Shown here piece by piece: positions 7,535-45,457 of a stretch of 64,000 nt of DNA (the first letter of the stretch is position 1; every line of letters begins with the position of its first letter). A model generated the notes under the pieces. It searched no databases. It was not told the DNA's origin and was given only the letters and a program-made list of their open reading frames with translations. A program made the position numbers and the translations under genes. The stretch covers positions 364,044-428,043 of the forward strand of contig NZ_JAQSDA010000020.1 of assembly GCF_029945685.1 (NCBI RefSeq), written 5' to 3'. The DNA is from Polaromonas sp. (lineage in GTDB: Bacteria > Pseudomonadota > Gammaproteobacteria > Burkholderiales > Burkholderiaceae_C).

Positions 7535-7638
7535 CTAAATCTCCTCGGGGTTGGGCGGTCTGTGCAGCCATGGTAGCCGCAGCCTGGCGCCTGGCCCTTG
7601 ACCCGCCTCACGTCCGGCGCTGGAGGCACAATACAGCC

Positions 7639-9609
7639 GTGGCCATTCCCCAATCATTCATCCAGGAACTGCTGGCGCGCGCCGACGTGGTGGACATCGT
7701 CGGGCGTTATGTACAACTCAAAAAAGGCGGCGCCAATTTCATGGGGCTGTGCCCCTTCCACGGCGAAAAATCACCTTCCTTCAGCGTGAGCCCGTCCAAG
7801 CAGTTCTACCACTGCTTCGGCTGCGGAAAAAACGGCAACGCCATCAGTTTTCTGATGGAGCACGGCGGCATGACCTTCGTTGAGGCCGTGAAAGACCTGG
7901 CCCAGCAGTACGGCCTGCAGGTGCCCGAAGACGACGTCTCGCCGCAGGAGCGCGCCCGCGCCGCCCAGGCGCGCGAGCAGCAGGCCACGCTCACAAGCGT
8001 GCTGGAAAAAGCCGGCATCGCCTACATCAAGCACCTGCGGAGCGCACCGCGCGCCATTGATTACCTCAAGGGCCGCGGCCTGTCCGGTGAAATTGCAAAA
8101 ACCTTCGGCCTCGGTTACGCGCCCGAAGGCTGGCGCGCACTGGCCAGCGTCTTCCCCGACTACAACGACCCGTTGCTGGTCGAAAGCGGGCTGGTCATCA
8201 CCGGCGAGCCGGGTGAGGAAAATTCGCAGGGCGAAGCCAAGCGTTACGACCGCTTCCGCGACCGCATCATGTTTCCGATCCGCAACGTCAAGGGCGAATG
8301 CATAGGTTTCGGTGGGCGCGTGCTGGGCGACGAAAAGCCCAAGTACCTGAACTCGCCGGAAACCCCGGTGTTCAGCAAGGGCCGCGAGCTCTACGGCCTG
8401 TTCGAGGCGCGCACCGCCCTGCGTGAACACGGCTACGCGCTGGTCACCGAAGGCTACATGGACGTGGTGGCGCTGGCCCAGCTCGGTTTTGCCAACGCCG
8501 TGGCCACCCTGGGCACGGCCTGCACCGCCGACCATGTGCAAAAACTGTTCCGTTTTACCGATTCGGTGGTCTTCAGCTTCGACGGCGACAGTGCCGGCCG
8601 CCGCGCCGCGCGCAAGGCGCTGGACGCCGCCCTGCCCTTTGCCACCGACGTACGCACCGTCAAGTTCCTGTTTTTGCCGGCCGAACACGACCCCGACAGC
8701 TACATCCGCGAACACGGCCAGGAAGGGTTTGCCGCCTATGTCGCCAAGGCCGTGCCGCTGAGCAGATTCATGCTCGAAGCCGCCGGCGAAGGCTGCGACC
8801 TGGACACCGCCGAAGGCCGCGCCCACATGGCCAGCAATGCGCGCCCGCTGTGGAGCCTGCTGCCCGACGGCACGCTCAAGCACCAGTTGCTCGCCGAGAT
8901 CGCCGACACCGTGCTGATCGACAGCCGCGAACTGCTGCAAATCTGGCAGCCGGCCGCGCCGCACTATAAAAACAGTAGCAGCTCGCGCACACCGGGCAAG
9001 GGCCAACGGCCTAAAACACCTGAAATGTCGGGCGGTGCGCCGGATTTCGGGGAGTTTTCCGGCAACTTCGCCGACCTGCACGACGAAGGCGCTTACGCTG
9101 CCTCGCTGCCCATGGACACGTCGCCGGCAGGCGGGTCTGCCGGCCGCAGCTTCGGCGCCAAGCCCGGTGCCAGCCGCCCGCCGCGGCGCATCGCCGGGCG
9201 GGTGTTGCCGGCCGGCCGGGAGGACCGGGTGCTGCGGCTGATGCTGACCGAGCCACAAAGCTGGGACAAGCTCAGCGGGGAAGAACACGTGCTGCTGTCG
9301 GAGCTGCCGGCGCCGCACGGCCCGCTGTTTGTCTGGCTGGAGAGCCAGCTGCACGAACACGGGCCGCAGCCCTGGGCGGCGCTGCGCGAGGGCCTGCGCG
9401 AGCACCCGCACGAGAAACACGCGATTGACCAGATCGCCCAGCTTCTGGACGGCATCGAGTGCGACTGGAACGAGGTCCGCGCCATCCTGGACCAGCTCCT
9501 CAAGCTCAAGCGCCAGCAGGAAATGGTTGATTTGCTGCCCCGGGTGCTGACCGACCCGGCGGCCAGGCAGCGTTACGAAGCCTTGTCCGGCCTGCTGAAA
9601 AATAGCTGA
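7639..9609 (+). CDS. dnaG: DNA primase
   Basis: The 656-residue primase has a CHC2 zinc finger (CPFHGEKSPSFSVSP then HCFGCG) at about residues 40-65. A central RNA-polymerase core follows, with the TOPRIM domain (VTEGYMDVVAL and FSFDGDSAGRRAA). The C-terminal DnaB-binding region is preceded by a variable linker. It makes RNA primers at the replication fork. GTG 7639 is preferred because VAIPQSFIQELLARADVVDIV is the conserved N-terminus. It sits upstream of rpoD, as in the macromolecular synthesis operon, but rpsU is not present here. Confidence 0.97.
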   Translation: MAIPQSFIQELLARADVVDIVGRYVQLKKGGANFMGLCPFHGEKSPSFSVSPSKQFYHCFGCGKNGNAISFLMEHGGMTFVEAVKDLAQQYGLQVPEDDVSPQERARAAQAREQQATLTSVLEKAGIAYIKHLRSAPRAIDYLKGRGLSGEIAKTFGLGYAPEGWRALASVFPDYNDPLLVESGLVITGEPGEENSQGEAKRYDRFRDRIMFPIRNVKGECIGFGGRVLGDEKPKYLNSPETPVFSKGRELYGLFEARTALREHGYALVTEGYMDVVALAQLGFANAVATLGTACTADHVQKLFRFTDSVVFSFDGDSAGRRAARKALDAALPFATDVRTVKFLFLPAEHDPDSYIREHGQEGFAAYVAKAVPLSRFMLEAAGEGCDLDTAEGRAHMASNARPLWSLLPDGTLKHQLLAEIADTVLIDSRELLQIWQPAAPHYKNSSSSRTPGKGQRPKTPEMSGGAPDFGEFSGNFADLHDEGAYAASLPMDTSPAGGSAGRSFGAKPGASRPPRRIAGRVLPAGREDRVLRLMLTEPQSWDKLSGEEHVLLSELPAPHGPLFVWLESQLHEHGPQPWAALREGLREHPHEKHAIDQIAQLLDGIECDWNEVRAILDQLLKLKRQQEMVDLLPRVLTDPAARQRYEALSGLLKNS

Positions 9610-38088: not shown

Positions 38089-38157
38089 CAGGTACCCTGC
38101 GGCGCCGCGTCCGCCTGTTTGATCTTTTCCAGAGACAGGGCAGTGAATGGGACTGTT

Positions 38158-38194
38158 CTCACCCTCGCCCTTCGGGAGAGGGCCGGGGTGAGGG
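38158..38194. repeat. CCCTCACCC-type REP palindrome
   Basis: CTCACCCTCGCCCTTCGGGA followed by GAGGGCCGGGGTGAGGG forms a long hairpin. A related inverted pair occurs at 45483-45561. It lies between the hydrolase gene and the DUF1801 gene. Confidence 0.8.
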
Positions 38195-38229
38195 CTTGAG
38201 CGTTCCGACTGTCATGATTTTTGAAACGC

Positions 38230-38646
38230 TCAATCGCGTGCGGGCTTGGAGTTCAGCGCCGCGGCGGCGCGTATCAGCGCCTTGAAGGCAGCTTCGTCGA
38301 TGGCATCGCCCTCCCCCAGATCAATCGCGCGCCGGGTGTTGCCTTCCAGGCTGGCATTGAACAGCCTGGCAGGGTCCTGCAGCGAAGCGCCCTTGGGGAA
38401 AGTCAGCTTCACCTTGGCCTTGTAGGTCTCGCCGGTGCAGAGGATGCCGTCACGTGACCAGACCGGCAGGCTCCACTTCCACTCCTCGACCACCGCCGGG
38501 TCGGCCTGGTGGATGAGCGAGCGGACTTTAGCCAGCGTCTTGCCGCGCCAGTCGTCCAGGCTTTTGATTTTTGCGTCGATCAGTTGGGAAGGGGAATCGG
38601 CTGACGCGCCTTCCTTCGGTTTGCCTTGACTGCGTTGACTATTCAT
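38230..38646 (-). CDS. DUF1801-domain protein
   Basis: The 138-residue protein contains LIHQADPAVVEEWKWSLPVWSRDGILC and YKAKVKLTFPKGASLQDPARLFNASL, the core of the small YdhG/DUF1801 family. Its function is unknown. The first ~20 residues are polar and variable. It stands alone before the HEPN/MNT block. Confidence 0.85.
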   Translation of the reverse strand: MNSQRSQGKPKEGASADSPSQLIDAKIKSLDDWRGKTLAKVRSLIHQADPAVVEEWKWSLPVWSRDGILCTGETYKAKVKLTFPKGASLQDPARLFNASLEGNTRRAIDLGEGDAIDEAAFKALIRAAAALNSKPARD

Positions 38647-38733: not shown

Positions 38734-39183
38734 CTACTTTTCAGCCAAAAATTCGGGGCGATGCGCTTGCAACCATGAAGTTGTTGTTGCAAGCAAATTA
38801 CTTGCCTGCTGAATGCATTCCGCCACCGACGCCGGCTCAATCAGGTTTCCACCGTAGTCGTTGAGGTTGCGCTTTCGACGCAGGGCATCCAGAACCCTCC
38901 ACACTTCAGGCGGCACGCCCATGGTGAGCTCCAATGACTGGATCATGGTCTGATGATGACCAGGGGTTGTCGTTGAAGGGCGATAGCCGTTTGCGCACAA
39001 CCCCACCATGGCACATTGCATGATGGCCTTGTAGGCTGCGTCAAACTGCGTTTCCGCGCTGATAGCTTTCACACCACTATCCGCCACATTTCTGCGGGCG
39101 GCAGCCAGCAAACGGCCAATTTCTGCGGCGCTGGAAACATGCGTGTTGAGCTGATTGACCTTCACCAAGTTGTCGAGACTCAT
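38734..39183 (-). CDS. HEPN-domain protein, partner of MNT nucleotidyltransferase
   Basis: The 149-residue, mostly helical protein starts MSLDNLVKVNQLNTHVSSAAE and contains RRKRNLNDYGG near residue 110. This resembles the catalytic or modified loop of HEPN toxins, though Tyr replaces the usual His of the RxxxxH motif. Start 39183 (ATG) is preferred to the TTG at 39189, which overlaps the upstream stop. It follows the MNT gene by 2 bp, the typical HEPN-MNT toxin-antitoxin order reversed. Assignment rests on gene pairing and this loop. Confidence 0.72.
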   Translation of the reverse strand: MSLDNLVKVNQLNTHVSSAAEIGRLLAAARRNVADSGVKAISAETQFDAAYKAIMQCAMVGLCANGYRPSTTTPGHHQTMIQSLELTMGVPPEVWRVLDALRRKRNLNDYGGNLIEPASVAECIQQASNLLATTTSWLQAHRPEFLAEK

Positions 39184-39185
39184 AT

Positions 39186-39776
39186 TCAACTTACCTCAGA
39201 CATCGTTAAGTCGTCGCCTATCAACCATAATTTCGGGCCCCTCCAAACCTGCGCGACGAAGCCACCCGGGTCTTTCAGCTTGAGCTTGAACTCCGATAAA
39301 GAAAACACAGCCGGATTTACTTCCCGGCGCAATTGCTCTTGTACCGGAACCAGCGCTTGTACAGCCCGACCAAAACCTACCGCCCCCACAATCATGACGT
39401 CTACGTCGCTGTATGCGTGCTCTTCTCCGCTGGCCATCGATCCGTAGACGAACGCAAATTCAACTTCGTCGCGAATCGGACTAAGCGCAGCACGCAAAAC
39501 GTCGACCAAGCCAGCTGTTTTGCGCAACAAACCCGCAAGTTCAGTGAATACTGGCGACTCTTTGTTAGCTTGGTAGTGCACTTGTCGCCCAACCTCTTTT
39601 CGATGAAGCAGGCCCAACTCGGCCAGCGCCCGCAAATCCCGGTGCAGCGAACCCGGCGATGTGCCAGTAAGCCGCGCCAGTTCGCGAACATGCAGGGACG
39701 CCTCCGGGTGCAGCAATAAGGCACTCAGTACTGCGGACCGGTTTTGCCCGAGGAGAAACGTTGCAATCGACGTCAT
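39186..39776 (-). CDS. MNT nucleotidyltransferase with N-terminal winged HTH (antitoxin-like)
   Basis: The 196-residue protein has a winged HTH (LHVRELARLTGTSPGSLHRDLRALAELGLL, residues 29-58) and a minimal nucleotidyltransferase domain with YGSMASGEEHAYSDVDVMIVG near residues 112-132, an intact GSx10DxD site. MNT proteins of this kind inactivate a paired HEPN RNase by adding AMP to it. The HTH suggests that it also represses its own promoter at the 29-bp palindrome upstream. ATG 39776 is chosen over TTG 39782. Confidence 0.85.
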   Translation of the reverse strand: MTSIATFLLGQNRSAVLSALLLHPEASLHVRELARLTGTSPGSLHRDLRALAELGLLHRKEVGRQVHYQANKESPVFTELAGLLRKTAGLVDVLRAALSPIRDEVEFAFVYGSMASGEEHAYSDVDVMIVGAVGFGRAVQALVPVQEQLRREVNPAVFSLSEFKLKLKDPGGFVAQVWRGPKLWLIGDDLTMSEVS

Positions 39777-39811
39777 GCCCAAATTCTAAGTCAATCGAAG
39801 CAAAAATGAGA

Positions 39812-39840
39812 ACATTTGAAGCAATTTTTGCTTCAAATGT
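39812..39840. promoter_or_regulatory. 29-bp palindrome upstream of the MNT/HEPN pair
   Basis: ACATTTGAAGCAA and TTGCTTCAAATGT are perfect 13-bp arms around TTT. A further GAAGCAAAAA copy lies just beside it. It overlaps the stop of the HEPN-like gene and ends 36 bp before the MNT start, so it may serve as operator, terminator or both. Confidence 0.65.
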
Positions 39841-40501
39841 CTTCGACAAACAACTGAGCAATCAGGTCCGTCACGATTTCAAAGGTCCCCAACACCGTGT
39901 TGTGCAGCGTGGCACTGCCATGGGCATAGTCGTTACGGATGCGAGGCAGGCTATCTTCAAAGATCTTTAGAAGATCGTGCGCATAGTCTTCTGGAACAGG
40001 CACTGGAGGCGCAGCGTCGCAAACCAGCTCGGTCAAACCATTGCTCTGCAAATAACGAATACGCTCAAGGGAGACGCGGTGTTCGGCCCGAAGGCGAGCC
40101 AGGCGCTCCGTGACTCTGAGGCCAATATTGGTCAACAGCTTCTCCTCGCGGGCTTTGGCAATCAAGGTACGCAATGTGGGGTGCCGCTTGGCCTGCGGAC
40201 CAAACTGTTCGGGGAACATGGGCGCAAGGCGCTCGCGCAAGGCAAACTCAAGTGTCGCAAGCACATGCTTTTCGGCCACCGGGTGAAACCGGTAAACAAA
40301 CCAGGCATACAGGTAGAGGTTTTTCGCGGTTTCGAAATGCACTCGAACCGGATAGGGAACAGAGTCCGACAGCAGGTACTCGCCTACGCGCTGCTGCCGT
40401 TGAGCGAGAGAATCGAACCGGTTCGTTCTTGGGTCCGGACCGAGCACCGCTTGCAGATCGCGAAGGCTGTCTGCAGAAACCACCGCCTCGAACGGTTTCA
40501 C
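39833..40501 (-). CDS. HEPN-like protein of unknown function
   Basis: The 222-residue protein is largely helical. Near its C-terminus it has LPRIRNDYAHGSATLHN, a clear RxxxxH motif of HEPN ribonucleases or HEPN-like scaffold domains. I set the start at GTG 40501, which overlaps the GIY-YIG stop by four bases (GTGA). The longer ORF of the track would read back through the GIY-YIG gene. The N-terminal half, with NLYLYAWFVYRFHPVAEKHVL, is not recognised. A defence or RNA-cleaving role is inferred from the motif and neighbours. Confidence 0.68.
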   Translation of the reverse strand: MKPFEAVVSADSLRDLQAVLGPDPRTNRFDSLAQRQQRVGEYLLSDSVPYPVRVHFETAKNLYLYAWFVYRFHPVAEKHVLATLEFALRERLAPMFPEQFGPQAKRHPTLRTLIAKAREEKLLTNIGLRVTERLARLRAEHRVSLERIRYLQSNGLTELVCDAAPPVPVPEDYAHDLLKIFEDSLPRIRNDYAHGSATLHNTVLGTFEIVTDLIAQLFVEDI

Positions 40502-41385
40502 AACCCGGCTTCCATGGCCTGTAGTTCTTTGAGTGTGCGGCCGAAAGCGTCTTTCCACTCAATGCGCCCATTGGCGCTGCGGCCCAGCAACACCGCCGCA
40601 GCCGTGCTGGGGGAGCTGAATACGTAGTCTTGTGTGAGTCTGTACGCGCTGCCGGGAGCCGCCGACTCCGGCACCAGCACGCCATTGGCAATCAATTCTT
40701 TTTGTCGCGTGTCGTACATGCCGCGCACATGTAGCTGCATGGACGGCACTGCTTCAGCAACGGCCTGCGACCCGGCTTTAACCACAAAACCTTGAGTGCC
40801 TTCGTAACCCGTGGCCACAATGCCTTTACCTTTGCACGTGAGTTGCGCCGTGGGCGTGGCCGCTTGCTTGGCAGGCAACTCAAACGCATGCACGCCCAGT
40901 ACCGGCAACATCCCCAGCATGTTGTCCAGAAACACCAGCATGTCGGCGCGATCGGCTTCGCTCAGCGTGGGTTCGGCAGGATGGTTGCCATTGTCCAGCG
41001 GCAGGCGCTTGGCTGTTTTGGCCAGGCGCACCAGATTGCTTTCCAGAAACTGCACATGCGCCTTGTTCAGTTGCCCCGGAGTAGCAACAAAGCAAACTGC
41101 CCGTGTCCAGAAGTCTTTCTGGGCGTAGTGGTTCTCAAGCCGTGGTTTGATGGGGTCGCCTTCGCCGATATAAAGCATGTCGCCTTCGCCATCTTCACGC
41201 GGACCAAGGAGCAAATAAACGCCGGTCTGGTTCAACTCCGGGCGCTGCTTCACCTGCGGCAACAAAGCGCGCGGAAACATCAATGCTTTGCCTACCCAAT
41301 TGGATCGCTCGACGAGGCGCAAGCCATCGGGGTCACCGTCAGCAACGAATATGCGAAGTGAAAACGGATTTCGACTTTCTGCCAT
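40498..41385 (-). CDS. GIY-YIG nuclease-fold protein with C-terminal DUF4357 domain
   Basis: The 295-residue protein has GVYLLLGPREDGEGDMLYIGEG (residues ~55-77), the GIY-YIG core, followed by the Arg region KPRLENHY. Its last 60 residues, YVFSSPSTAAAVLLGRSANGRIEWKDAFG, match the DUF4357 domain. Such proteins are usually uncharacterised but recur near restriction and toxin genes. It begins 2 bp after the HNH gene and overlaps the HEPN-like gene, so all three are probably translated from one message. Confidence 0.85.
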   Translation of the reverse strand: MAESRNPFSLRIFVADGDPDGLRLVERSNWVGKALMFPRALLPQVKQRPELNQTGVYLLLGPREDGEGDMLYIGEGDPIKPRLENHYAQKDFWTRAVCFVATPGQLNKAHVQFLESNLVRLAKTAKRLPLDNGNHPAEPTLSEADRADMLVFLDNMLGMLPVLGVHAFELPAKQAATPTAQLTCKGKGIVATGYEGTQGFVVKAGSQAVAEAVPSMQLHVRGMYDTRQKELIANGVLVPESAAPGSAYRLTQDYVFSSPSTAAAVLLGRSANGRIEWKDAFGRTLKELQAMEAGL

Positions 41386-41387
41386 AG

Positions 41388-42302
41388 CTAGCTCAACTCG
41401 CTGGTGGGAATTGAAACTTGTTCTATCAACTTGTCATTAGCTTCCTGAACCTTGACTTGAAGTATTGTTCTGAGTGATGCACGGCGACTGCTGTAATGCG
41501 CTTCTCTATGGTGATTGGGGCAGAGGGAAATTACGTTAGTGATGTTGTCTCTCCCCTTTTCGGACAAAGGCACTACATGATGCGTTTCCAGAAAAACTCG
41601 TCCGTCGTACTTCAAAAATCCGGGCACACCACAAAATTCACAAAATCCATCGGCACGCAGGAGTGCCGACTTCCGGACTTCAGCGCTGCGAACAAAAACT
41701 TTCCCGTTGGCGTCTCGTTGGTCGGGATAGCCTTCTCCAACGGACTCATCAAACTGATCGGTGAAGCGATCCGGCTCGGCGCCCCGCGTCACGACGCAGT
41801 CACCCGTAGTCTGGTCGTATGACGTTATGGCCCATGGCTCCGGGTCCAACGCTCTTCTGTAAACATGGGAAGGTTCCGAATCTGGATCTTCCGCAGTCCT
41901 CATGTCACCTTGGCAGACAATCACCCGAATTGGGATCTTGGTCCGAGCAGCTTGCTGGATGCATAGGTCCATTCTTGAGGCACGACGCTCCCAGGTCTTT
42001 CGCCCCGCTCTACCCATGCTAATACCGAACTGACGCGGATTGATTACCTGACGGACAGTCCCGCTCTGTTCCTCCATCGAGTCGAACCAAAGATTCAGCA
42101 CAACCACCTTTGCCGGTTCGACAAACGCCCATTCATAGCAATATTTTGGGTTACTGGCAGCGCGTAAAGGATTCGGGCCCTTGCGAAAATTCACCCAGTC
42201 ATTGACGCTAACACCCGCGTTACGAACAAGATCCATCACACGGGAGTGAGTCTTGGGATCAATTTCATCCAGAACGTTCTTTGATACAGAATCTTGAGTC
42301 AC
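41388..42302 (-). CDS. HNH endonuclease
   Basis: The 304-residue protein ends in an HNH nuclease domain: CEFCGVPG zinc knuckle, LETHHVVPLSEKGRDNITNVISLCPNHHREAH. The N-terminal ~130 residues (VSVNDWVNFRKGPNPLRAA, EWAFVEPAKVVVLNLWFDSM) form a region I cannot name but consider a target-recognition or regulatory domain. I place the start at GTG 42302, which has GGAGA upstream. The track start at 42425 is inside a fragment of a glutathione S-transferase gene. It heads the HNH, GIY-YIG, HEPN-like run. Confidence 0.85.
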   Translation of the reverse strand: MTQDSVSKNVLDEIDPKTHSRVMDLVRNAGVSVNDWVNFRKGPNPLRAASNPKYCYEWAFVEPAKVVVLNLWFDSMEEQSGTVRQVINPRQFGISMGRAGRKTWERRASRMDLCIQQAARTKIPIRVIVCQGDMRTAEDPDSEPSHVYRRALDPEPWAITSYDQTTGDCVVTRGAEPDRFTDQFDESVGEGYPDQRDANGKVFVRSAEVRKSALLRADGFCEFCGVPGFLKYDGRVFLETHHVVPLSEKGRDNITNVISLCPNHHREAHYSSRRASLRTILQVKVQEANDKLIEQVSIPTSELS

Positions 42303-42344: not shown

Positions 42345-42490
42345 CCAGCCGACGATGGCGAAGTCGGCTATTGAGATTTCTTGGGCTGCGGAGAAAGCGT
42401 GGCCGACCAGGCGGCGGTCCATCACGCCGTAGGCGTTTGGTCGCGACCATGAAGCGCTCCAGGCCGTAGCGGCGATCGGCTTCGTTTTTT
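42345..42490 (-). pseudogene. Glutathione S-transferase gene fragment (duplicate of the 43.1-43.8 kb gene)
   Basis: About 146 bp match bases 43258-43405 of the intact transferase gene at roughly four of five positions: EADRRYGLERFM in one frame, then, after a 2-bp deletion, MDRRLVGHAF and EISIADFAIVGW in another. The fragment lies directly before the HNH gene and supplies the false N-terminus of its track ORF. Confidence 0.85.
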
Positions 42491-42503: not shown

Positions 42504-42716
42504 TCAGTCCCTCCAACTCGCGCACTTCCCATTTGACTTTCGGTAGCCCGGTCCGCCCTTGGAACCGCAACCTCCTCCGCCACTGCCACCACTACGGCCA
42601 CCGCTTCGGCCGCCGCCCCTTGACCCGCCTCGGGAGCCCCCCGAGCGGCCTTTTGCTTCCGCCTCCGCTCCCGCCAGAGCCGCAATCACCCACACAGCGA
42701 ATATCCGCCGTTTCAT
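42504..42716 (-). CDS. Small secreted Gly/Ser/Arg-rich protein
   Basis: The 70-residue ORF has a plausible signal peptide (MKRRIFAVWVIAALAGAEAEA), a low-complexity GRSGGSRGGSRGGG tract and a conserved-looking tail with cysteines (GCGSKGGPGYRKSNGKCASW). It overlaps the upstream ORF by ATGA, which supports translation. Function unknown. Confidence 0.6.
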   Translation of the reverse strand: MKRRIFAVWVIAALAGAEAEAKGRSGGSRGGSRGGGRSGGRSGGSGGGGCGSKGGPGYRKSNGKCASWRD

Positions 42717-42994
42717 GGCTTCGTACCGTCTTTTCCCGTGTAAGGGTTCACATTGCCCTTCTGGTTGTAGTTGTCATGCGAACTGCCGTTCGGATTGGTA
42801 GCATGACTTGGCGCAACATAGGTGCCGTCCTTTTTGACATAGCCGTTTACCTGGTGATTTTGGCTATTCACATGGCCTGAGCCACTTTGATGAGAACTGC
42901 TGTTATGCCCGCCCCCGTGGGCGCCTCCACCACCTTTGGCGACGGCACTTAGGCTTATGCCGCACATAGCAACAAGAATAAAAATCTTCTTCAT
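42713..42994 (-). CDS. Small secreted Gly/His/Asn-rich protein
   Basis: The 93-residue ORF has the signal peptide MKKIFILVAMCGISLSAVAKG, a Gly/His/Ser-rich middle and a tail with GYVKKDGTYVAPSHATNPNG and NPYTGKDGTKP. I have seen this last pattern in short exported proteins of Proteobacteria with no known function. It is the first gene of the pair and overlaps the next one by four bases. Confidence 0.68.
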   Translation of the reverse strand: MKKIFILVAMCGISLSAVAKGGGGAHGGGHNSSSHQSGSGHVNSQNHQVNGYVKKDGTYVAPSHATNPNGSSHDNYNQKGNVNPYTGKDGTKP

Positions 42995-43128: not shown

Positions 43129-43767
43129 TCATGCTGAGCGCTTCAACGCCACCCCAAACCCTCGGGCCACTGCCGGCCGCGCCATCATCCCCCGGTACCA
43201 CCGCAACACATTTGGGAAATCCGCCAGATCGATCTTGTGCCGGTCATGCCGCCAGACCCAGCCGACGATGGCGAAGTCGGCGATTGAAATTTCCTCACCT
43301 GCAAAGAAGGCGTGGTCGGCCAGGCGGCGGTCCATCACGCCGTAGAGGCGTTTTGTCTCGGCCATGAAGCGCTCCAGGCCGTAGCGGCGGTCGGCTTCGT
43401 CTTTGAGTGCGATGAAGTGGTGCACCTGGCCGGGCATGGGGCCAAAGCCGGCCATCTGGAACATCAGCCACTCCATCACCGCCACGCGGGCGCGCGGGTC
43501 CTTGGGCAAAAAGGTGCCGGTCTTTTCGGCCAGGTAGATCAGGATGGCGCCGGACTCGAAGACGCTGATGGGCTCACCGCCCGGGCCGTCGGGGTCGATG
43601 ATGGCAGGGATCTTGTTGTTGGGACTGATCTTCAGGAACTCGGGCGCGGTCTGCTCGCCCTGGGTGATGTCCACCACATGCACCTCGTAGGGCAGGCCCA
43701 TTTCCTCGAGGGCGACGGTGATCTTGCGGCCGTTGGGGGTGTCGAAGGCGTAGAGCTGGATGGGCAT
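43129..43767 (-). CDS. Glutathione S-transferase
   Basis: The 212-residue enzyme starts MPIQLYAFDTPNGRKITVALEEMGLPYEVHVVDI. It has the glutathione-binding NNKIPAIIDPDG and SVFESGAILIYLAEKTG of the thioredoxin-like half, then an all-helical half with SIADFAIVGWVWRH. It resembles YghU/Ure2-like transferases. Start 43767 gives the family N-terminus; the longer track ORF includes non-homologous residues. Part of its 3' half is duplicated 770 bp downstream. Confidence 0.9.
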   Translation of the reverse strand: MPIQLYAFDTPNGRKITVALEEMGLPYEVHVVDITQGEQTAPEFLKISPNNKIPAIIDPDGPGGEPISVFESGAILIYLAEKTGTFLPKDPRARVAVMEWLMFQMAGFGPMPGQVHHFIALKDEADRRYGLERFMAETKRLYGVMDRRLADHAFFAGEEISIADFAIVGWVWRHDRHKIDLADFPNVLRWYRGMMARPAVARGFGVALKRSA

Positions 43768-43897
43768 GGCGATTCCTTGTTGTGATGTATGCAGCCGGCA
43801 AGCCCGGGCCCACCGGCGAAAAACGCGAGTCTGACACAGGCGCGGCGGGCTTGCTGAGCGGCTGGCAACCACCGACGAGGACGGCGATACTAGGCCC

Positions 43898-45457
43898 ATG
43901 TCGCGCCGCCTCCCCGCTCTTTCCGCCTTCGCCGCTTGCTGTATCGCCCTGCTGCTGGCCACCGTCAGCAGCCTGGCCCTCGCCGCGCCGCCCGCCAACG
44001 ACACGCTGCGCATAGGCTCCAAACGCTTCACCGAGTCCTACATCCTCGCGCAGGTGCTGGCGCAGACGGCTGCGCCACACACGCCCACGCCGCCTTCGGT
44101 GCTGCAGGGCCTGGGCAACACGGCGATTGTTTATGAGGCGCTGCGCTCGGGCAGCATTGACCTGTACCCGGAGTACGTGGGCACCATCAGCCAGGAGATT
44201 CTCAAGGGTGAGGCGACCATGAGCACGCAGGCCATGAACACCGCGCTGGCGCCGCTGGGCCTGGGGGTGGCGGTGCCGCTGGGCTTCAACGACGGCTATG
44301 CGCTGGCCATGCGCGAAGACATGGCGCAGCGCCTGGGGATAACCTCGCTGAGCGACCTGGTGAAACACCCTGAACTCAAGCTGGGCCTGTCGAACGAGTT
44401 CATCGGCCGGGCCGACGGCTGGCGCGGGCTGGCGCAGCTTTACGGTGCGCCGCAAACACCGGTGGCGCTGGACCACGGGCTGGCCTATGACGCGATTTCG
44501 CAGAAGCAGGTGGATGTGATCGACATCTACACCACCGACGCCAAGATTGGCCACCTGGGCCTGCGCGTGCTGAAGGACGACAAGGCCTATTTTCCGCGGT
44601 ATGACGCGGTGCTGCTGTACCGGCTGGATGTGCCCACGCGTTTTCCGCAAGCCTGGGCGGCGCTGCAGAAGTTGGAGGGCAGCATCAATGAGACCGCGAT
44701 GATTGCCATGAACGCGCGGGCCGAACTCAAGGGTGTGGCGTTTGACGTCATTGCGCGGGACCATCTCACGGCCAAAGCGGGCGGCACGCCAGCCGCGGCG
44801 GCGGGCACAGGTACCGATGCCGGCCAGCGCGGCTTCTGGGCCAAACTTTTCGGCCCCGACCTGGCGCGGCTGACGCGCCAGCACCTGGCGCTGACATTCA
44901 TCTCGGTCGGGCTGGCGGCGCTGATGGGTATTCCGCTGGCGGTGTGGGTGTTTCCGCACCCGCGCCTGCGCGCCGTGGTGCTGGGCGCCACCGGGCTGAT
45001 GCAGACCGTGCCTTCGCTGGCGCTGCTGGCGATGCTGATCTCGCTGCTGGGCGTGATCGGCACCGCGCCGGCGCTGATTGCGCTGGCGCTGTATGCGCTG
45101 CTGCCCATCATGCGCAACACGGTGGCGGGCCTGGGCGAGGTGTCGGGCGGGCTGCGGCTGGCCGGGCAGGCGCTGGGCATGACGGCCGGCCAGCGCATGC
45201 GCCACATCGAGCTGCCGCTGGCGCTGCCGACGATTGTGGCCGGCGTGCGCACAGCCACCGCCATTGCGATTGGCACGGCGACGATTGCGGCCTTTATCGG
45301 CGCGGGCGGGTATGGCGAGCGCATCGTCACCGGCCTGGCGCTCAACGACGGCCAGTTGCTGCTGGCCGGCGCCCTGCCCGCCACCTTGCTGGCGCTGCTG
45401 AGTGAGGCGCTGTTCGAGGCGGTGGACTGGCTGATGCGGCGGCGCCGGGCCGGCTGA
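43898..45457 (+). CDS. Osmoprotectant ABC transporter, fused substrate-binding and permease protein (OpuBC-OpuBB type)
   Basis: The 519-residue protein begins with a signal/anchor segment, then a choline/betaine-type receptor domain (LRIGSKRFTESYILAQVLAQ; residues ~35-290) and continues into a permease with about five membrane helices (HLALTFISVGLAALMGIPLAVW, MQTVPSLALLAMLISLLGVIG, GIGTATIAAFIGAGGYGE-like). This receptor-permease fusion imports quaternary ammonium compounds. No ATPase gene is adjacent in the window, so it must be encoded elsewhere or shared. Confidence 0.88.
   Translation: MSRRLPALSAFAACCIALLLATVSSLALAAPPANDTLRIGSKRFTESYILAQVLAQTAAPHTPTPPSVLQGLGNTAIVYEALRSGSIDLYPEYVGTISQEILKGEATMSTQAMNTALAPLGLGVAVPLGFNDGYALAMREDMAQRLGITSLSDLVKHPELKLGLSNEFIGRADGWRGLAQLYGAPQTPVALDHGLAYDAISQKQVDVIDIYTTDAKIGHLGLRVLKDDKAYFPRYDAVLLYRLDVPTRFPQAWAALQKLEGSINETAMIAMNARAELKGVAFDVIARDHLTAKAGGTPAAAAGTGTDAGQRGFWAKLFGPDLARLTRQHLALTFISVGLAALMGIPLAVWVFPHPRLRAVVLGATGLMQTVPSLALLAMLISLLGVIGTAPALIALALYALLPIMRNTVAGLGEVSGGLRLAGQALGMTAGQRMRHIELPLALPTIVAGVRTATAIAIGTATIAAFIGAGGYGERIVTGLALNDGQLLLAGALPATLLALLSEALFEAVDWLMRRRRAG

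Follow-up and report, generated by a model that had tools for sequence, protein, structure and literature searches.

The coupling of HEPN ribonucleases (RNases) such as PrrC, ApeA, and AbiJ to restriction systems has been reviewed (PMC3710099), and PrrC acts as a sensor of restriction inhibition (PMC12707154). Defense genes have also been described inside type I operons: DarTG2 lies between hsdS and hsdR, likely a recombination hotspot (PMC12255303), and TgvAB is a type IV system inside a type I operon (PMC11411939). Here we analyzed five adjacent genes at positions 38734-42302 of a 64,000-nucleotide stretch of Polaromonas sp. DNA (contig NZ_JAQSDA010000020.1; the whole stretch is called the window), which an earlier reading of the letters by a model, the original prediction, had proposed as a candidate defense module. 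We found that they probably constitute a horizontally acquired composite defense cassette, in which a type IV nuclease is joined to two restriction accessory genes that were relocated and to an MNT/HEPN unit that regulates itself. This reading draws directly on the anatomy of the cassette, its conserved active-site motifs, the recurrent contexts of its genes, and the independence of the MNT/HEPN pair. The genes, in gene order, are the following.

41388-42302, minus strand: McrA-like (type IV-like) HNH endonuclease whose N-terminal domain is of unknown fold; matches to Pfam HNH, PADLOC mREase_IV, and 6ghc, and Foldseek matches to 6ghc/6ghs/5zmm
40498-41385, minus strand: GIY-YIG nuclease with C-terminal DUF4357; DUF4357 and PDC-S14 matches, GIY-YIG residues kept
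39833-40501, minus strand: putative HEPN-like RNase, family uncatalogued; RNDYAH (R-x4-H) in a 37-row alignment, AlphaFold model, weak ApeA-like Pfam matches
39186-39776, minus strand: MNT nucleotidyltransferase with an N-terminal helix-turn-helix (HTH), candidate antitoxin/regulator; PDC-M05A, GS-x10-DxD
38734-39183, minus strand: HEPN partner of MNT with the variant motif RNxx[DE]Y; PDC-M05B, motif in five homologues

All five open reading frames (ORFs) were intact and on the minus strand. The HNH gene is followed after 2 bp by the GIY-YIG gene, which overlaps the HEPN-like gene by 4 bp (GTGA); the MNT gene begins 56 bp further on and is separated from its HEPN partner by 2 bp. The original prediction had the strand, the two 2-bp gaps, and the overlap right, as well as the AT-richness of the region (55-56% GC in the island vs. 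64-66% in the flanks). Its picture of a run that is tight throughout held for these spacings only, since the 56-bp gap between the HEPN-like and MNT genes and a palindrome at this junction had been missed.

The GIY-YIG protein matched DUF4357 (2.8e-20) and, over its full length (residues 6-292), the PADLOC phage-defense candidate PDC-S14 (6.7e-100, 332 bits); it is alike to PDC-S14 over the whole protein, with no difference in sequence, and differs in that the window copy lies outside a type I operon. The nuclease motif is conserved in the alignment (GVY, YIG, R82, H86, E115, and N132). No match to the Pfam GIY-YIG domain was found at E 0.1, and no convincing sequence relative of the family was found in the PDB. 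The nearest homologues (77-79% identical) were those of a Curvibacter locus (L019) and of L248, both located in the gap between hsdS and hsdM within one type I clade. Others occur in type I operons of different phyla (Prosthecochloris, Rhodococcus, Salinibacter, and Parabacteroides) and on about 10 viral or prophage contigs. Judging from these homologues, the GIY-YIG gene is elsewhere an accessory gene of type I restriction operons.

Gene order in other loci was informative as well. In a Ramlibacter operon (L020) the order is hsdR-hsdS-PDC-S20-GIY-HEPN-like-MNT-HEPN-hsdM, its GIY-YIG/DUF4357 gene being a pseudogene (about 7552-8000) that has lost the catalytic core through an internal deletion and has a disrupted frame. 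The Curvibacter operon reads hsdR-hsdS-ORF-HEPN-like-GIY-hsdM, with one opposite-strand ORF ahead of hsdM. The order GIY-MNT-HEPN was found in a locus of the host's genus (L188), and HEPN-like-MNT-HEPN in L033. Altogether, GIY-YIG and HEPN-like genes occur together in L019, L020, L046/L054, L052, and partly L038, and the MNT/HEPN pair joins one or both of them in L020, L033, and L188. By this comparison the order of genes exceeds chance, with GIY-HEPN-like-MNT-HEPN in L020 and portions of this order at several further loci, and the earlier idea of a transferred defense module is borne out to that extent.

Type I operons were then surveyed with the HsdM of L019 as a query against 251 genomes of the host's family, of which 42 contained a strong match, and 26 operons with both hsdS and hsdM were mapped (L019, L020, and L051 included). 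In 25 of these 26, hsdS and hsdM were separated by a gap of 1.2-7.2 kb (median about 2.4 kb, measured between BLAST matches, so that gene ends are approximate), whose residents include GIY, HEPN-like, and MNT/HEPN genes. The arrangement hsdR-hsdS-[slot]-hsdM was seen in L019, L020, L248, and L253. Considering that the nearest homologues sit in hsdS-hsdM slots, close relatives of four of the window's five genes are found as slot cargo. Genes of hsd type flank the cassette genes on both sides in L019, L020, and L248, and do not do so in the window. We infer from the nearest relatives that accessory genes were relocated from type I operons, which is not the same as a demonstrated transfer. The slot cargo of L243-L273, L019, and L020 also contained one recurrent cluster of nine ORFs, mostly proteins of 470-660 aa. 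Since DarTG2 and TgvAB are already known inside type I operons, the kind of arrangement is known; they resemble the present case as accessory defense genes at a variable site, and differ from it in that the slot here lies between hsdS and hsdM, the gene content is other, and no type I operon surrounds the window copy.

When 85,462 species genomes were scanned for homologues of the HEPN-like gene, 44 loci were recovered, two of which (L046 and L054) share sequence, and the family alignment has 37 rows. The window protein contains RNDYAHG, and R189, N190, A193, H194, and G195 are nearly invariant across the family, at least 90% of whose sequences retain the motif R and H. The AlphaFold model is all-helical (pLDDT 92.9) and places the R-x4-6-H motif within a helical bundle, as in the HEPN superfamily; the Foldseek matches of highest probability in the PDB were HEPN toxins, at E above 1. 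The structural check proposed earlier gave HEPN matches below significance for this protein and no match that could be claimed for the HNH N-terminal domain. The window protein matched no family among the Pfam, NCBIfam, and PADLOC profiles. Over the family, PADLOC and NCBIfam gave scattered weak matches, 7 of the 37 members matched ApeA-like HEPN (PF18739) weakly (best 7.8e-4), and no convincing sequence relative was found in the PDB. The protein is therefore likely a HEPN-family putative RNase, weakly ApeA-like, from an uncatalogued family. It shares R-x4-H and the association with restriction-modification (R-M) operons with the ApeA-like and other R-M-linked HEPN families (Anantharaman 2013, PMC3710099); its 37 members, in contrast, have no Pfam, NCBIfam, or PADLOC family of their own, and Bxe_C0808 of that paper stands outside this comparison. 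PrrC beside EcoprrI is likewise a HEPN RNase that accompanies a restriction operon and may back it up, whereas the window protein has neither an ABC ATPase sensor domain nor an adjacent restriction operon.

The contexts of the HEPN-like gene were diverse. Type I genes accompany it in 12 loci (L016, L019, L020, L030, L032, L037, L038, L045, L046, L048, L051, and L052), type IIG genes in L033 and L060, McrBC in L035, SIR2-HerA in L055, and other PADLOC candidates in L029, L050, and L061; Dsr1-containing systems are also among its contexts. On the family tree, where the window sequence clusters with L019 and L020 (support 98/95), the type I label requires 5 changes, and well-supported branches force at least 3 of these. 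Because this label changes repeatedly, the partners of the gene have been swapped. No copies were found in the other sampled genomes of the host genus. In L021 the gene lies directly downstream of TniB and TniQ genes and may travel as transposon cargo, and on a Paraburkholderia sabiae plasmid (L002, 8001-9847) it is interrupted by an IS5-family transposase.

The likely start of the HNH gene is a GTG at 42302, with GGAG upstream. A longer frame from a GTG at 42425 was rejected, as that start falls inside a duplicate of a GST gene fragment; because this fragment is repeated just upstream of HNH, the longer frame is an artefact of the scar. The HNH domain matched Pfam HNH (1.3e-8) and PADLOC mREase_IV (8.9e-18), and the C-terminal part is of the McrA type (EcoKMcrA chain 6ghc, 9.3e-17 by sequence and 5.7e-25 by profile). 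The predicted model is of moderate quality (pLDDT 74.5), and its best Foldseek match was again 6ghc (7.2e-6), followed by TagI and ScoMcrA. The catalytic residues H242, N256, and H265 are invariant among homologues, giving the McrA-type catalytic domain with conserved residues that the type IV class calls for; no known modified-base reader domain, which that class also calls for, was found in the protein. Residues 1-185 form a domain shared by homologues, with the motif NPKYCYxWAF, and matched nothing in Pfam or among PDB sequences; the Foldseek matches rest on the HNH domain. An SRA reader in this part had a Foldseek probability of 0.3 or less and is not claimed. The protein resembles EcoKMcrA, ScoMcrA, and TagI, which are type IV modification-dependent HNH endonucleases, in its C-terminal HNH domain and the absence of an adjacent cognate methyltransferase, but its N-terminal domain matches none of their readers, and its modification dependence is a prediction. 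Accordingly graded, it is probably a type IV-like, modification-dependent DNA endonuclease. Its closest relatives are solo genes. Among the near-full-length homologue loci examined (plasmids, genomes, and viral contigs), none had a GIY-YIG/DUF4357 or HEPN-like gene beside HNH, and among the slot cargo of 40 type I loci that were scanned no copy of HNH was seen, bar one weak generic HNH match. Hence, of the three genes expected to co-occur in the original prediction, GIY-YIG and HEPN-like recur together and HNH accompanies neither in the homologue loci examined. A Thioclava plasmid protein (L098, 3569-4357) has a DUF4357 domain fused to a McrA-like HNH domain of the window's type.

The MNT protein and its HEPN partner are adjacent and matched PDC-M05A (1.6e-72, 241.5 bits) and PDC-M05B (1e-62, 208.5 bits) of PADLOC, respectively, that is, a complete PDC-M05 pair. 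The pair is related to MntA-HepT (type VII) through an MNT with an intact GS-x10-DxD motif followed by a HEPN partner. It departs from that system in the N-terminal HTH on MNT, in the NCBIfam MntA score (24.5 bits against a cut-off of 60), and in the HEPN motif, where Asp/Glu replaces His, so that the R-x4-H-x-Y of type VII HEPN proteins is absent. The claim that the combination is not a named system therefore stands for the HEPN-like family, which is uncatalogued, and not for the GIY-YIG gene (PDC-S14) or this pair (PDC-M05). The nearest MNT/HEPN homologues, 56-61% identical, are those of L253 and L170. In L253 the pair is the only one of the window's gene set and lies within a type I operon; in L170, which belongs to the relative G017, it is 61% and 56% identical and sits just past DUF1801 without the other three genes. 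Upstream of MNT is the following element.

39812-39840, no strand: perfect palindrome, 29 bp, ACATTTGAAGCAATTTTTGCTTCAAATGT; candidate operator of MNT and/or terminator for the three upstream genes

It is the longest perfect palindrome of the window, covers the HEPN-like stop codon 5' of MNT, and scores as terminator-like too. The two nearest MNT homologues (L170 and L253) also carry its half-site ACAwTTGAAGCA in their upstream regions, and the more distant ones (L020, L033, and L188) have another repeated upstream motif, of the form CCC-N-GGGTAT. We infer that the pair is a separate autoregulated unit with its own candidate operator. The earlier suggestion that it may be an addiction module fits with the separate upstream region and the independent occurrence.

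The cassette occupies a site delimited by three further features.

42345-42490, minus strand: GST-gene duplicate fragment, scar on the left side of the island; 147 bp with 88% identity to the intact gene
43129-44031, minus strand: resident GST gene, anchoring the variable site on the left; G004 and G017 conserve it, with different DNA beyond
38230-38646, minus strand: DUF1801 gene, anchoring the variable site on the right; homology with relatives restarts within it

The two closest relatives having both anchors, G004 and G017, carry different DNA in the GST-DUF1801 interval, which is a variable site, and insertion accounts most simply for the island. Neither a methyltransferase nor a recognizable hsd gene or remnant was found in the island; the host hsdM and hsdS are on a different contig. 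An origin of the whole cassette from a plasmid or phage was rejected, as the DNA had no plasmid match, the HEPN-like protein had no phage match, and only three copies of its family were on viral contigs. Two small Gly-rich ORFs with signal-peptide-like starts and no family match lie between the GST gene and its fragment (42504-42994), and a dispersed repeat of about 115 bp at 38119-38234 has several further copies, 80-89% identical, in the host genome and G004.

The close 2-bp and 4-bp spacing could also mean that the HNH, GIY-YIG, and HEPN-like proteins form one dedicated undescribed antiphage complex acting jointly, much as the original prediction had grouped them into one effector unit. GIY and HEPN-like genes are neighbors in several other loci, L052 has a row of an HNH protein, HEPN-like, and GIY beside type I genes, and the Thioclava fusion joins DUF4357 to HNH. 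However, the HNH protein of L052 is a different, PDC-M01B-like one, the near-full-length HNH homologues lack these neighbors, and the HEPN-like gene has been exchanged among systems. A joint complex is thus unlikely, the single effector unit was not upheld, and a fixed three-gene system was set aside as the principal account because HNH homologues occur without the other two genes. It is more improbable still that the cassette is the remnant of a decaying type I R-M operon that has lost hsdR, hsdS, and hsdM and has no present function. Four of the genes do have their closest homologues in type I operons, the hsd genes are absent here, and L020 exemplifies GIY decay in a type I setting, but all five ORFs are open, the active-site motifs of the HNH, GIY-YIG, HEPN-like, and MNT proteins are intact, HNH is not a usual slot resident, and nothing recognizable as an hsd gene is left in the island.

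Several observations nevertheless weigh against a composite defense cassette. The HEPN fold of the HEPN-like protein is weakly supported, Foldseek giving no PDB match below E 0.001, and the HEPN partner of MNT lacks the canonical His, with RNxx[DE]Y in all five homologues. The N-terminal reader of HNH has no match at all, so its modification dependence rests on relatives of the HNH domain. With no hsd genes beside the cassette, the GIY-YIG and HEPN-like proteins may lack the partner that they usually have. Moreover, in six Gallionellaceae loci (L022, L024, L027, L028, L031, and L034), which form one clade (99/98), the HEPN-like gene lies with fadJ and mostly fadA. This setting resembles a beta-oxidation operon, a defense-type gene within a housekeeping operon. 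If the HEPN-like protein were a general regulator or RNA-binding protein instead of a defense nuclease, its place between or beside fadJ and fadA would be explained. Nevertheless, about 20 other loci of the gene are restriction or candidate defense operons, and the conservation of the motif R and H points to a nuclease, so that we consider a regulator improbable and retain the composite defense cassette.

Every biochemical activity of such a cassette, and any antiphage effect, is a prediction from these comparisons. HNH, GIY-YIG, and HEPN-like would be expressed from one operon, HNH first, followed by the independently regulated MNT/HEPN pair. The HNH and GIY-YIG enzymes would attack incoming DNA, and the HEPN-like RNase would serve as a second line, cutting RNA and halting the cell if defense at the DNA level fails or is inhibited, comparable to PrrC beside EcoprrI. 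MNT would keep its HEPN partner in check, probably by the nucleotide transfer known from MntA-HepT, and would use its HTH to repress the pair through the palindrome. As a more speculative and tentative extension, the HEPN-like protein may be the founder of a guard RNase family whose members combine with unrelated DNA-cutting systems (type I, IIG, McrBC, SIR2-HerA, and McrA-like HNH), sense when the partner nuclease fails, and then shut down the cell, with GIY-YIG/DUF4357 as a frequent co-passenger, maybe within the sensing unit.

The new elements are the HEPN-like family, the breadth of its partners, and the stand-alone GIY/HEPN-like/MNT cassette behind a McrA-like HNH gene. An unlabelled gene run has been turned into testable parts, and an uncatalogued HEPN family with a clear tendency to attach to restriction systems has been delineated. 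One type I clade carries a cargo slot between hsdS and hsdM, whose accessory genes recur in stand-alone islands. If unrelated nucleases do share the HEPN-like protein as a backup, it would become directly testable how one RNase guards many different restriction enzymes.

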